Assembly (NCBI GenBank): GCA_902557645.1
Contig: CACEAP010000002.1
Coordinates: 1-64,000 of the forward strand
Length of the DNA: 64,000 bases
Source of the DNA: an uncultured SAR86 cluster bacterium
GTDB lineage: Bacteria > Pseudomonadota > Gammaproteobacteria > Magnimaribacterales > D2472
Reading direction: 5' to 3'
A model generated the notes under the pieces. It did not search any database. It was given only the letters and a program-made list of their open reading frames with translations, and was not told the origin of the DNA. This document shows positions 2,835 through 16,518 of this stretch, one piece after another. The number at the start of each line of letters is the position of its first letter. The first letter of the stretch is position 1. The position numbers and the translations under genes are program-made.

Positions 2835-2882
2835 TTCTACATTGTATTTTTTCTAACAAAGAAGTTCTATATAAATTGCTTA

Positions 2883-3662
2883 TTAAAATACAAAACCTAA
2901 TTCTCTTAATCTCTCACTAGAGATCTTCCTTATCGAGTCATTTGTATTATTAAAATATTTGTTGAAATCTTGAGATCCAATAATATTCATGAAATATTCT
3001 TCGTAAGTTATCGAGCTAGACGAGCAATTGAATAAGTGATTATTTAAATATAGCTCTTCTTTTAAAGCAAAAGCTATAATCCTTGCACATTCATCTCTAT
3101 GTAACCTATTTAAATATTTATTGGATAAATCTCTTTTAATGCCATTAAAATTTTCAACAAAATCTTTTAGCCAATTAGTATTATCATCATACAATCCGCT
3201 TAGCCTTAAAATTAAAGAATTGGATTGAAAAAGTGATTGGATATTTTTTTCATATTCTAGGATGATGGATCCGCGATAGTCTGAAGGCTCAGGAGTATTT
3301 AACTCTGTCAGCTCCCCTTCTTGATGGGAGCCATAAACTCGGGTTGAAGAAATCCCTATGAAGGATTTAAATTCAATATCTTCCAAAGATTTATTGATGG
3401 TTTTAAGAGGTTCGATAAAACCTAACTTATAGCCATTCTCAGAAAAATCGGTTGGCTTTGGAAAAAAAATAACCGAATCAAATTTTTTCTCTGGAGCTTT
3501 GAATGGTTCCTGATTTAACCAATCCCACTCTATTAATTTAGTGCCTTTATATTTTTTAGGTGACCTAGTTAATCCATAGATAGCTACATCCTTGTCTAAA
3601 AGCTGTGCTTCTAGTCTTTGCGCTAGATCACCAAAACCAATAATTAATATATTCTTTTTCAT
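2883..3662 (-). CDS. NAD(P)-binding Rossmann-fold epimerase/dehydratase (YeeZ-like)
   Basis: Nucleotide-binding N-terminus NILIIGFGDLAQRL, SSTRVYGSHQEG. Confidence 0.7.
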   Translation of the reverse strand: MKKNILIIGFGDLAQRLEAQLLDKDVAIYGLTRSPKKYKGTKLIEWDWLNQEPFKAPEKKFDSVIFFPKPTDFSENGYKLGFIEPLKTINKSLEDIEFKSFIGISSTRVYGSHQEGELTELNTPEPSDYRGSIILEYEKNIQSLFQSNSLILRLSGLYDDNTNWLKDFVENFNGIKRDLSNKYLNRLHRDECARIIAFALKEELYLNNHLFNCSSSSITYEEYFMNIIGSQDFNKYFNNTNDSIRKISSERLRELGFVF

Positions 3663-11887: not shown

Positions 11888-12324
11888 GGAATAGGCATTC
11901 TAAGACCGCACACCATATAGCAATATGTGAAGCTAATTATTTAAGATTAGAAAATTTATTAATAAATTTTTTAAATGATAGATATAAATTTGAATTGCAT
12001 TTAAATGATCTTGATATTCAATATATTTCTTTTCTAATTCTTGAAAGAACAAAACATACCTTGGTAATTGAAGCAAAACAAAATGATATATCATCATCTC
12101 TGAATGATTTTGTTATAAGAATAAACGTTTTTATAGATGCTGGTTTGGCAGAGGTTGCTTCATACCAAAGCGAGAAACCATTACCATTCTTTTTCAAAAA
12201 ATCTTCTATACAGTCCAAAGATGAAAAAGATCAACAAAACAGATTTCTTACAGAATGGTTGGAAAGTATTTTTATTTCGGGAATAGCTCCTAAGTCCGCT
12301 ATAGAAAAAATATTTGATGATTAA
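11884..12324 (+). CDS. yqiB: DUF1249 (YqiB-like) protein
   Basis: CEANYLRLENLL motif; followed by YqiA-like esterase, matching the enterobacterial yqiB-yqiA neighbourhood. Confidence 0.7.
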   Translation: MRNRHSKTAHHIAICEANYLRLENLLINFLNDRYKFELHLNDLDIQYISFLILERTKHTLVIEAKQNDISSSLNDFVIRINVFIDAGLAEVASYQSEKPLPFFFKKSSIQSKDEKDQQNRFLTEWLESIFISGIAPKSAIEKIFDD

Positions 12325-12892
12325 ATCGATATTTTATTTCCATGGATTTATGTCTTCTTCAGATTCAACTAAAGCTCAAATATTTAAAGAATATATAGTT
12401 AAGAATCACAAAAATATAAAACTATACATACCTAATATTGCTGATAAATTTACAGAAGCAATACCTCAACTTAATAAATTAATAGAAGAATCAAATGCTA
12501 ATGAAATGGTATTTATGGGAAGCTCTCTTGGTGGATTTTTTGCAACTCATTACGCAGAATGTTTTAAATCAAAAGCGGTTGTTATAAATCCTGCAATTAA
12601 TCCTTCAGATGGTTTAAAGATATATTTAGGTGATAATGAAAATTATGCAAATGGTAATAAATTTGAACTTACTATAGATGATATTGATGCTATTAAAGCT
12701 TTAGAGGTTGATTCTATTAAGAATCCAAAGAATTATCTTTTATTATGTGAATCCGATGATGAGGTCCTGAATTATCTTGATGCAGTTAGATTTTATAAAG
12801 CATCATATCAAGATATAAGCTTTGGTGGAGATCACTCTTATAGTCGCTTTAAAGAAAAACTGGAAATTATAAAGAAATTCATTAAAATATAG
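12314..12892 (+). CDS. yqiA: YqiA/YcfP family alpha/beta-fold hydrolase
   Basis: FYFHGFMSSSDSTKA, GSSLGGFFATHYAE, GGDHSYSRF; nucleophile elbow GxSxGG. Confidence 0.8.
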   Translation: MMIKSIFYFHGFMSSSDSTKAQIFKEYIVKNHKNIKLYIPNIADKFTEAIPQLNKLIEESNANEMVFMGSSLGGFFATHYAECFKSKAVVINPAINPSDGLKIYLGDNENYANGNKFELTIDDIDAIKALEVDSIKNPKNYLLLCESDDEVLNYLDAVRFYKASYQDISFGGDHSYSRFKEKLEIIKKFIKI

Positions 12893-12896
12893 CATA

Positions 12897-12964
12897 TGCG
12901 CAATATAGGTGCATAAATTAATTAATGCACTATAATAATACTTAAAATGCACTAAAAAAGTACT
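12897..12964 (+). promoter_or_regulatory. Candidate NtrC-binding sites (TGCGCAATATAGGTGCA 12897-12913; TGCACTATAATAATACT 12926-12942; TGCACTAAAAAAGTACT 12948-12964)
   Basis: Resemble the NtrC consensus TGCACC-N5-GGTGCA; upstream of a sigma-54-like promoter and a glutamine synthetase gene. Confidence 0.65.
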
Positions 12965-12980
12965 TTTTTTAATATAATTG

Positions 12981-12998
12981 TGGCACTGTTATTGCATG
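12981..12998 (+). promoter_or_regulatory. Sigma-54 (RpoN) -24/-12 promoter
   Basis: TGGCACTGTTATTGCATG, matching TGGCAC-N5-TTGCA with GG and GC 12 bp apart. Confidence 0.85.
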
Positions 12999-13031
12999 CT
13001 ATATGTTAGTTAACTAATTTTAGGAGAAAAA

Positions 13032-14012
13032 ATGTCAGAATTTAAAACATATGAATATGTTTGGTTAGATGGTTATAAACCAGAACCATCAATGCGAAGT
13101 AAAGTAAAAGCAACTAAAGCTGATACACCACCTGAATGGTCTTTTGATGGATCATCAACTCAACAAGCAGAAGGCGGAAGTTCAGATTGCTTATTGCTTC
13201 CAGTCCAAACATATGTAAATAAGAATGGTCATGATTTAGTAATGACGCAAGTTCAAGCTGCTGATCATACTACTCACCCATCAAATTTTAGAGCAGCAGC
13301 TGAAGAAGTTGTTACTGATGAATGGTGGTTTGGTTTCGAGCAGGAGTTCTTTTTTACTGACCCTCAAACAGGAGAGCCTTTAGGCTGGGAAGATGGAGAG
13401 CCTAGAGAACAAGGTGATTACTATTGTGGAGTTGGAGCCAGTAATGTTGTTGGTAGAGAAATCTCAGATGTCCATTTAGCGGCATGCCTCGATATGGGTA
13501 TTGAACTTACAGGTACAAATGCTGAAGTAGCATTAGGACAATGGGAATATCAATGCTTTGGAAAAGGTATTAAAGCTGCAGATGACCTTTGGATAAGCAG
13601 ATACTTGCTTTATAAGATTGCTGAAGAATTTGGAGTTGGTGTGAATATTCATCCAAAACCAAAGACTGGTGACTGGAATGGTTCTGGTATGCATTGTAAT
13701 TTCTCAAATGAGGCTATGAGAACTGCAGGTTCAGAAGAGTTATTTTCATCAATGTGTGACAAATTAGGTGAAGTGCATGAAGAAGGTATTGCAGCCTATG
13801 GTTCTGATAATGATATGAGGTTAACTGGTTTACATGAAACTCAAAGCATTGATACTTTCTCATACGGAGTTAGTGACAGAGGTGCGAGTATTAGAATTCC
13901 AGTATACACAGTTGAGCATGACTGGAATGGCTACTTAGAAGATAGAAGACCTGCTTCAAATGCTGATCCATATAAAATTATTGCTCATATCGTAGGGACA
14001 TTAACAAAATAA
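13032..14012 (+). CDS. glnII: Glutamine synthetase, type II (eukaryotic-like, beta-grasp)
   Basis: YEYVWLDGYKPEPSMRSKVK, WSFDGSSTQQAEGGSSDC, NIHPKPKTGDWNGSGMHCNFS, LTGLHETQSIDTFSYGVSDRGASIRIP; about 326 aa, GSII size rather than GSI. Confidence 0.9.
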   Translation: MSEFKTYEYVWLDGYKPEPSMRSKVKATKADTPPEWSFDGSSTQQAEGGSSDCLLLPVQTYVNKNGHDLVMTQVQAADHTTHPSNFRAAAEEVVTDEWWFGFEQEFFFTDPQTGEPLGWEDGEPREQGDYYCGVGASNVVGREISDVHLAACLDMGIELTGTNAEVALGQWEYQCFGKGIKAADDLWISRYLLYKIAEEFGVGVNIHPKPKTGDWNGSGMHCNFSNEAMRTAGSEELFSSMCDKLGEVHEEGIAAYGSDNDMRLTGLHETQSIDTFSYGVSDRGASIRIPVYTVEHDWNGYLEDRRPASNADPYKIIAHIVGTLTK

Positions 14013-14057: not shown

Positions 14058-15146
14058 ATGGTTGATTTAGAAAAGTTAGATATATCATTACTAAATCATT
14101 TAACTACTGAAATTATAGTATTAGATGAATCTAAAAAAGTGTTATGGATTAACGATTCTGCTCAGGCAAATGGTTGGAGTAAGGATTCAAATGATCTTTC
14201 TTCTTTTTCAGCAATGTTATCTCCTGATACTGAAGAAGAGATACGAAGAATTATTAATATGGCTATTGATGATCGAAAATCAATTACCAAAAGAGATTTT
14301 GAGTTAAAGGCTAACAAAGAAGATTCACGTGAAGTAGATCTTACAGTTTCTTACTCGCCAAAGGACAGTCTAATTATCGTAGAGGTAATGAGTGTTGATA
14401 ATTTAAATAAAATTATTGACTCCTCAAAATCAGCTTCCTCGCAAAGAATAGCAGCAAACCTTGCACGCACTCTTGCCCACGAAGTAAAGAATCCATTAGC
14501 TGGTATTAAAGGGAGTGCGCAAATACTCAGCTCAAAAGCAAAAGATGATTTCTCAGAAAAATTTCTTAAAATTATTATTGAAGAGACTGAAAGATTAAAT
14601 TCAATTGTATCTAAAATATTAACGCCTCCACAAAAACCAAACATGGAACCATTTAATATTCACTCTGCTCTTGAAAGAGTACACTCCCTTGCATTAGCAG
14701 AAGGAATATCAAATGCAAATCTATTAAGAGACTATGATCCTAGCATTCCAGATATTAATGGAGATGAAAATTTATTTATTCATGCAATATTAAATATAGT
14801 AAAAAATGCTATACAAGCTATAGATATTAATAATAATGAAGCTTCTATAACTATCTCTTCAAGAGTAGGATACAGTAGACCTATAAACGGGAAAGTCTTC
14901 TCAACTATATGTCAAATTGACATAAGTGATACAGGTCCTGGTATACCTGATGAAATCCAAGAACAAGTTTTTTTTCCAATGATGTCCACAAAAGATGATG
15001 GATCTGGGTTAGGTCTATCAATTGCTCAAGATATAATAAGGATTCATGGTGGCTCAATAGCATTCTCAAGCAAGCCCGGTAACACAGTTTTCTCTATTTT
15101 ATTACCACTGCCAATTGTTCAATTAAAGGGGGTAGCGAATGCATAA
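14058..15146 (+). CDS. glnL: Nitrogen regulation sensor histidine kinase NtrB
   Basis: H-box LARTLAHEVKNPLAGIKGSAQIL, N-box IVKNAIQAI, GxG boxes; followed by ntrC. Confidence 0.93.
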   Translation: MVDLEKLDISLLNHLTTEIIVLDESKKVLWINDSAQANGWSKDSNDLSSFSAMLSPDTEEEIRRIINMAIDDRKSITKRDFELKANKEDSREVDLTVSYSPKDSLIIVEVMSVDNLNKIIDSSKSASSQRIAANLARTLAHEVKNPLAGIKGSAQILSSKAKDDFSEKFLKIIIEETERLNSIVSKILTPPQKPNMEPFNIHSALERVHSLALAEGISNANLLRDYDPSIPDINGDENLFIHAILNIVKNAIQAIDINNNEASITISSRVGYSRPINGKVFSTICQIDISDTGPGIPDEIQEQVFFPMMSTKDDGSGLGLSIAQDIIRIHGGSIAFSSKPGNTVFSILLPLPIVQLKGVANA

Positions 15147-16518
15147 GATATGGGTAGCTGATGATGATGCAGCCATTCGAACAATCTTAGAAGAAAGCCT
15201 AAATACTGCTGGGTTTGAAACTACTATATTTCCTGATGCTGATAGTCTTATAGATAATCTAAATACATCTCAACCTGACCTAGTTATAACAGATATTAAA
15301 ATGCCCGGAACTCATGGATATGACCTTTTAAAACATTTTAATGATAATTACGAAGATATCCCTGTAATAGTTATGACTGCATTTACTGATATGCAAGCTG
15401 CAATTGATTCTTATGGAGGTGGAGCATTTGAATATATGCCTAAACCTTTTGATTTAAATGAAGCAACAGATATTATAAATAGAGCTCTTGAAGGTAAGCC
15501 AAAAACTAAAGGCTTAAAAGGCAAGCCTTCTTCTGAAATTATTGGAAATGCTAATTCTATGCAGTTAGTTTTTAGAGCTATAGGAAAGTTATCAAATACA
15601 AATGCTACTGTTCTAATCCAAGGAGAGTCTGGAACAGGTAAGGAGCTTATAGCCAAATCACTACATAAAAATAGCCCAAGACATGACATGCCATTCGTTG
15701 CTCTTAATATGGCAGATATCCCAAAAGAACTAATTGAATCAGAATTATTTGGCCATGAAAAAGGCGCTTTCACAGGAGCAGTTGAAAAAAGAATTGGTAG
15801 GTTTGAGCAAGCAAATGGTGGAACATTATTTCTAGATGAAATTGGAGATATGCCCTTAGAATGTCAAACAAGATTATTAAGAGTCTTATCTAATAAAGAG
15901 TTTTATAGAGTAGGTGGTGATAAACCCATTAAAGTAGATGTGAGAATCTTGGCAGCAACACACCAAGACCTTCATAGTTTAGTAAGCTTATCTAAATTTA
16001 GAGAGGATCTTTTCTATAGATTAAATGTCATTAGAATTGAGGTTCCAAAACTCAAAGAAAGAATTGATGACATAAAATTACTAGCTACAGCATTTCTAAA
16101 GATGCATTCAGACTCCCTAGGTGAAGAATTAAGAGTGCTCAGCAAAGAAGCATTAGAAGTTTTGGAGAAATATAATTGGCCAGGCAATGTAAGGCAATTA
16201 GAAAATATTTGTTACTGGTTAACACTTATGTCTCCAACTCAGAATATAAAAGTTGAAGACTTACCAAATGAAATTAAAGATTTTGATAATCTTGAAGATG
16301 ATCTTCCAACTGATTGGGAAAAAGGATTTTCTATATGGTTAAAGAATTTATCTAATAGCAAGGACTCAAATTTATTAGATATAGTTGGGCCTAAATTAGA
16401 TAAAATGTTAATAAAAACAGCTTTAGAAAAAACAAATGGTCGTAAAAATGATGCAGCTGTTTTATTGGGCTGGGGAAGAAACACTCTTAGCAAAAAGATT
16501 AAAGAATTAGGGCTGTAG
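15139..16518 (+). CDS. glnG: Nitrogen regulation response regulator NtrC (sigma-54 activator)
   Basis: Receiver DLVITDIKMPG, AAA+ GESGTGKELIAKSLH, ESELFGHEKGAFTGA, C-terminal Fis-type HTH. Confidence 0.95.
   Translation: MHKIWVADDDAAIRTILEESLNTAGFETTIFPDADSLIDNLNTSQPDLVITDIKMPGTHGYDLLKHFNDNYEDIPVIVMTAFTDMQAAIDSYGGGAFEYMPKPFDLNEATDIINRALEGKPKTKGLKGKPSSEIIGNANSMQLVFRAIGKLSNTNATVLIQGESGTGKELIAKSLHKNSPRHDMPFVALNMADIPKELIESELFGHEKGAFTGAVEKRIGRFEQANGGTLFLDEIGDMPLECQTRLLRVLSNKEFYRVGGDKPIKVDVRILAATHQDLHSLVSLSKFREDLFYRLNVIRIEVPKLKERIDDIKLLATAFLKMHSDSLGEELRVLSKEALEVLEKYNWPGNVRQLENICYWLTLMSPTQNIKVEDLPNEIKDFDNLEDDLPTDWEKGFSIWLKNLSNSKDSNLLDIVGPKLDKMLIKTALEKTNGRKNDAAVLLGWGRNTLSKKIKELGL

Follow-up and report, generated by a model that had tools for sequence, protein, structure and literature searches.

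Predicted sigma-54/NtrC control of a type II glutamine synthetase in SAR86 bacteria and its apparent exchange for glutamine riboswitches in related lineages

Introduction

In enterobacteria, the glnA-ntrB-ntrC operon (glnALG) combines a sigma-54 promoter (glnAp2) and enhancer boxes with a type I glutamine synthetase (GSI) that is adenylylated. The SAR86 locus described here shares with glnALG the gene order, a predicted sigma-54 promoter, and similar enhancer distances, but its enzyme is a type II glutamine synthetase (GSII) instead of an adenylylated GSI, and glnE is absent. A GSII is also encoded by glnII of Sinorhizobium (meliloti), a direct target of phosphorylated NtrC and sigma-54 (PMC5127829). 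Rhizobial glnII therefore resembles the SAR86 gene both in the type of enzyme and, as predicted for the latter, in mainly transcriptional control via NtrBC and sigma-54 (PMC5127829); however, rhizobia also keep a GSI with GlnE, whereas the SAR86 GSII is the sole glutamine synthetase found and lies directly before ntrBC. Because rhizobial glnII is likewise controlled, sigma-54/NtrC control of the SAR86 GSII would by itself be a modest variant.

The glnA RNA (RF01739) is known to occur in tandem copies and with genes for glutamine synthetase, ammonium transporters, and glutamate synthase (PMC2864571). The glutamine riboswitches of SAR86 agree with this pattern in their tandem copies and gene set (PMC2864571), but they sit on nitrogen operons that are under predicted sigma-54 control in sister lineages, including that of a TonB receptor. 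In a full-text search of the open-access literature, which leaves most subscription journals outside, no paper on SAR86 and a glutamine riboswitch was found, and only one on SAR86 and sigma-54, which concerns oil degraders; nor was any earlier account found in the open-access literature of riboswitches taking over a whole regulon, or of an NtrC from which the AAA+ domain is missing. The comparisons below make it very probable that GSII-ntrB-ntrC is an operon-like nitrogen cluster controlled by NtrC and sigma-54, and that this circuit has been repeatedly dismantled in SAR86, with riboswitches present in two of the lineages concerned (genus g7 and family f4).

Locus structure and promoter

The window (the whole 64,000-nt stretch of DNA that was analysed) opens contig C2 of a 1.25-Mb assembly in 17 contigs (G000), which is 87.5% complete, so that absences from this genome are provisional. 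Among named records, those closest to its GSII protein come from SAR86 cluster genomes, in keeping with an origin of the DNA in SAR86. The ORF table, NCBIfam, and Pfam together give the gene order yqiA-GSII-ntrB-ntrC on the forward strand: a yqiA-like esterase (12314-12892), which is a conserved upstream neighbor and anchors the locus across SAR86; GSII (13032-14012; 326 aa); ntrB (glnL; 14058-15146), encoding the sensor kinase NR(II) with its HEVKNPL and GSGLGL motifs (NF008293, 250.9 bits; cut-off 240); and ntrC (glnG; 15139-16518), encoding NR(I). The last of these exceeds the TIGR01818 equivalog cut-off (633.6 bits; cut-off 558.6) and has the expected architecture of a receiver, an AAA+ domain with GAFTGA, and a Fis-type HTH. 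All three nitrogen genes are adjacent and in order, which confirms the original prediction that GSII occupies the position of glnA in glnA-ntrBC.

By sequence and by length (~330-370 aa for the type), the enzyme belongs to GSII rather than GSI, scoring 349.6 bits with the GlnII model versus 51 with that for type I GlnA. Amongst solved structures, the nearest by sequence (4bax, the closest, together with 3fky, 2d3a, and 2ojw) are GSII-length chains, and longer GSI-type chains match only at 1e-9 or weaker. The score lies below the GlnII equivalog cut-off of 500 bits. Matches were obtained in 26 Pseudomonadota genomes, and all of these stayed below that value too; the cut-off therefore looks specific to another branch of GSII.

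The sequence TGGCACTGTTATTGCATG (12981-12998) carries a GG doublet at 12982-12983 and a GC doublet at 12994-12995, i.e., at the canonical spacing of a sigma-54 promoter, and the -24/-12 element itself (TGGCACTGTTATTGCA, 12981-12996, forward strand; TGGCAC-N5-TTGCA) falls within the consensus TGGCAY-N5-TTGCW. It begins 51 nt upstream of the GSII start codon, with a predicted transcription start at ~13007, as projected from the -12 element, and a ribosome binding site, read directly from the sequence, at 13021-13028 (TAGGAGAA, forward strand). The exact motif (TGGCAYN5TTGCW) occurs once in the 64-kb window and at least once in 17 of 100 whole-window shuffles (mean 0.18); when one mismatch is allowed, five motifs are present versus 5.4 expected. 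Since the latter count shows no excess, the motif string alone is weak evidence and conservation must carry the case. The position 51 nt before the start codon, together with the conservation described below, raises the motif above chance, and dependence of the promoter on RpoN is predicted.

Three NtrC-like 17-mers lie upstream on the same strand: box 1 (TGCGCAATATAGGTGCA, 12897-12913; 10 of 12 consensus positions), box 2 (TGCACTATAATAATACT, 12926-12942; 9 of 12), and box 3 (TGCACTAAAAAAGTACT, 12948-12964; 10 of 12), centered at approximately -102, -73, and -51 from the predicted transcription start. Three boxes of at least 9/12 within 180 nt were seen in none of 200 dinucleotide shuffles. 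The boxes had been predicted with 22-bp offsets and box 1 as a fit to the NtrC consensus; all three are present, but they follow one another at 29 and 22 bp, and box 1 fits well in one half only (TGCGCA instead of TGCACC). No NtrC-like boxes were detected near the promoters of TorF or the TonB receptor, two further candidate sigma-54 targets.

Nitrogen-control genes of the source genome

In G000, the rpoN gene is present at C3:147641-148093 (PF04552, E 3e-45; RpoN of 424 aa), GlnD and three PII genes are encoded, and no glutamine synthetase other than the window GSII was found in this 87.5% complete assembly. GlnE was found in none of 61 genomes of the SAR86 order, with E. coli and Caulobacter as controls that do return it. 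The suggestion that control rests on transcription alone therefore stands as far as adenylylation is concerned, but not for sensing, which is kept in the form of GlnD and three PII genes to feed NtrB. The sigma-54/NtrC reading is supported in that the findings named in advance as speaking against it (absence of rpoN, promoter and NtrC boxes not conserved in orthologues, or an intact glnA-glnE system elsewhere) were all sought and none holds for G000.

Six exact sigma-54 motifs occur in G000 genome-wide, four of which lie 51-83 nt before nitrogen-related genes: GSII, TorF-glnK-amtB, a second glnK-amtB, and a TonB receptor that adjoins purine-uptake genes (a xanthine/uracil-type permease and phosphoribosyltransferases). 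The other two lie within ORFs. Of the proteins matching PF00158, NtrC alone scores strongly (244.6 bits; others at most 23). As the one strong sigma-54 activator of the genome, it would also have to fire the TorF-glnK-amtB, glnK-amtB, and TonB-receptor promoters. The number of exact motifs per genome was rejected as evidence for sigma-54, because genomes without rpoN have similar genome-wide counts; motif position alone is informative.

The observed gene content and motif positions suggest a sequence of events in which binding, direction of regulation, and function are all inferred from sequence. Under nitrogen scarcity, GlnD would uridylylate PII and NtrB would phosphorylate NtrC; NtrC would then bind the boxes at 12897-12964, its AAA+ domain would open the sigma-54 RNA polymerase at 12981-12996, and transcription of GSII (perhaps also of ntrBC) would increase. 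Given that neither GSI nor GlnE was found, control would act on how much GSII is made and not on adenylylation of the enzyme.

Distribution among SAR86 families

Genomes of the order were assigned to four families, namely f1 (that of the window, with g5 and g7 as genera within its set), f2, f3, and f4, which probably correspond to Suzuki, Magnimaribacteraceae, RedeBAC7D11, and CHAB-I-7, respectively. The published tree is ((Suzuki, CHAB-I-7),(Magnimaribacteraceae, RedeBAC7D11)) (PMC11582366), and a seven-protein tree made here has the same shape, with a weakly supported split (65) between f1+f4 and f2+f3. A strain of Magnimaribacteraceae, HIMB1674, has been cultured (PMC11582366); its family is not that of the window. 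The original prediction treated conservation in orthologues as a check. Outside g5 and g7, the -24/-12 motif before GSII is exact in 22 of 26 f1 genomes and near-exact in three more, the single failure being an assembly with a broken GSII frame. It is not conserved in g5, g7, f2, f3, or f4. Within the f1 lineage bearing rpoN, a sigma-54 motif precedes TorF in all 27 genomes and the TonB receptor in all 20 that could be scored (an exact match in 19, one change in the remaining genome). The region before GSII is enriched in NtrC-like boxes in f1, f2, and f3; g7 and f4 have none there.

These patterns bear on the explanation that the -24/-12 and NtrC-like strings are mere coincidences of AT-rich DNA. 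The lack of a one-mismatch excess in the window and the similar genome-wide numbers of exact matches in rpoN-less genomes are what coincidence would produce, but the elements are conserved in position and sequence across genera, recur at other nitrogen operons, and are missing at GSII in g7 and f4, both of which are without rpoN and ntrBC, so that this explanation is hardly credible.

Other lineages are less straightforward. Genus g5 (L061, L068, L074, L079, and L083) speaks against sigma-54 control of GSII, in that the core of the -24/-12 element is lost at this gene in five of five genomes, yet the genus retains rpoN, ntrBC, the NtrC boxes at GSII, and its sigma-54 sites before TorF. NtrC boxes at GSII also occur without a sigma-54 core in f2 and f3; f2 encodes rpoN, ntrBC, and GlnD and has sigma-54 sites at TorF and glnK. 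In three f2 loci (L090, L103, and L106), the 17-mers before GSII are perfect in two of the three, and no sigma-54 core is present. Boxes without a core in g5, f2, and f3, as well as a TATAAT inside box 2 of the window, would fit a gene transcribed mainly from a sigma-70 promoter, with NtrC as an ordinary activator or repressor there (as at E. coli glnAp1) and the -24/-12 element secondary. Sigma-70-like sites between 12700 and 16700 do not, however, exceed those in shuffles (21 versus 17.7, sd 4.3), the scan reported none over box 2, and a sigma-70 promoter in the window was rejected as a candidate for lack of this excess. Together with the sigma-54 core conserved in 22 of 26 genomes and the intact GAFTGA loop of the window NtrC, this makes a mainly sigma-70-driven GSII quite improbable, and control by NtrC and sigma-54 is preferred for the window.

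Probable replacement of the circuit by riboswitches

Within SAR86, rpoN has been lost at least three times (genus g7, family f4, and family f3). Searches of g7 and f4 for rpoN, ntrBC, GlnD, and PII found all of them missing. In both lineages, GSII is preceded by single or tandem RF01739 glutamine riboswitches scoring 62-71 bits, well over the gathering cut-off of the covariance model (35 bits). RF01739 is also placed before TorF-amtB. This holds for f4 and for both g7 genomes in which a TorF could be located, and the g7 leaders of TorF-amtB comprise three aptamers. In four g7 genomes, RF01739 likewise precedes the TonB receptor that is a candidate sigma-54 target in f1 relatives. The g7 and f4 leaders were folded in silico; as riboswitches, they would bind glutamine and change expression. 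With the protein circuit gone, glutamine would be read directly in the mRNA leader of the same operons.

The two kinds of control did not coincide in 80 loci from named genomes (a set partly overlapping the numbered one): eight have a riboswitch before GSII, all without ntrBC nearby; 31 have the sigma-54 motif, all with ntrBC; and none has both. On the tree, however, two riboswitch gains are set against at least three rpoN losses, independent events too few for a significant phylogenetic (sign) test of the association.

Riboswitches were also observed in other settings. One f4 genome (G039; L280:11164-12570) has a type I GlnA in place of GSII next to yqiA, where it is preceded by a tandem glutamine riboswitch, and GlnE is absent from this genome. 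Some rpoN-bearing f1 genomes (L273, L284, L274, L282, and L283) carry glutamine riboswitches, often tandem, before other genes, in these cases a two-gene pair or short ORFs.

Riboswitch control of GSII could instead be ancestral in SAR86, f1 having gained sigma-54 control later. Downstream of the aptamer, the GSII leaders of g7 and f4 are almost the same in sequence, with a related one in a further locus (L235), and a placement of g7 as sister to the other f1 genera was not rejected (p-AU 0.18); nesting of g7 within f1 is nevertheless favored over this alternative. Grouping g7 and f4 as one clade was rejected (p-AU 0.0004), and as the shared leader thus lies in separate clades, it may have spread horizontally. 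An ancestral riboswitch is also at odds with f2, where rpoN, ntrBC, and GlnD are encoded and both TorF and glnK have sigma-54 sites, and with an rpoN remnant in f3. That remnant, of ~78 codons with an RpoN box, is the only trace of rpoN in f3 and was found in one genome of g12 (L180, ~2857-3085; G038:C1:833391-833573) as a short in-frame ORF between lptB and mgtE, where the full rpoN of G000 also lies; the equivalent position points to loss rather than gain. The remnant may be either a pseudogene or a stand-alone DNA-binding remnant. Overall, an ancestral riboswitch is unlikely, and replacement of an older sigma-54 circuit is the preferred reading.

The origin of GSII in SAR86 is a related matter. 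Amongst 299 genomes sampled from the phylum, GSII matches at E <= 1e-60 were not seen in any gammaproteobacterium outside SAR86; the remaining ones come from large genomes outside Gammaproteobacteria, and GSII of other Pseudomonadota is ~45-51% identical to the window protein. Single-cell contigs labelled SAR11 (Pelagibacteraceae) encode a GSII that is 87-90% identical to it and falls inside the SAR86 cluster in the tree. These loci (L214, L215, L222, L240, L245, L246, L248, L249, and L252-L254) are without yqiA or ntrBC. Taking the SAR11 identity as given by the contig labels, transfer of GSII between SAR86 and SAR11 is likely. That the riboswitch arrived together with a GSII from SAR11 was considered and rejected, since no glutamine riboswitch was found in the five SAR11-labelled GSII loci tested and the GSII of g7 does not cluster with theirs.

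NtrC after the loss of sigma-54

In f3, sigma-54 is gone, and NtrB and a remodelled NtrC remain. NtrB retains its histidine and ATP motifs, and the loop of NtrC reads GAFTGA in g12-like genomes and GAFKGA in g15-like genomes. In g16-like genomes, NtrC is 256 aa long, and Pfam finds only Response_reg and HTH_8; the AAA+ domain that interacts with sigma-54 is gone in its entirety. The same short form occurs in G044, G053, and the named loci L237, L239, and L250. Most likely, the remodelled NtrC of f3, together with NtrB, works as a conventional transcription regulator at sigma-70 promoters. The nearest precedent is the NtrC of Rhodobacter capsulatus and Caulobacter, which is without GAFTGA and acts on sigma-70 promoters (PMC10274813). 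The g15 protein resembles these in its changed GAFTGA loop and in the retention of ntrB; f3 differs from them in that rpoN itself is lost and in that the 256-aa receiver-HTH protein of g16 is without the entire AAA+ domain. Two g16 loci additionally have a glutamine riboswitch directly before gltB, the gene for glutamate synthase (L275:1466-1524 and L285:4466-4525).

Conclusions

The observed riboswitch homology and NtrC domain loss suggest that, within one order, glutamine riboswitches probably took the place of a complete NtrBC/sigma-54 regulon one operon after another, and did so at least twice. In a third lineage, NtrC probably persisted beyond the loss of sigma-54, with the GAFTGA loop lost in one branch and the entire AAA+ motor in another; it would now be a plain receiver-HTH regulator and may still bind the old sites. 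More important than the promoter of a single GSII would be these two changes: glutamine riboswitches appear to have taken over operons once served by a protein circuit, and NtrC appears to have shed its motor after sigma-54 had disappeared. SAR86 is amongst the commonest bacteria of the surface ocean, and nitrogen sensing in such streamlined cells is poorly known. Sister lineages that place either a protein circuit (sigma factor, kinase, activator, and PII cascade) or an RNA switch on the same operons would provide a natural record of one type of gene control replacing another, and their comparison makes it possible to test how shrinking genomes rewire whole regulons and what becomes of an activator once its sigma factor has been lost.
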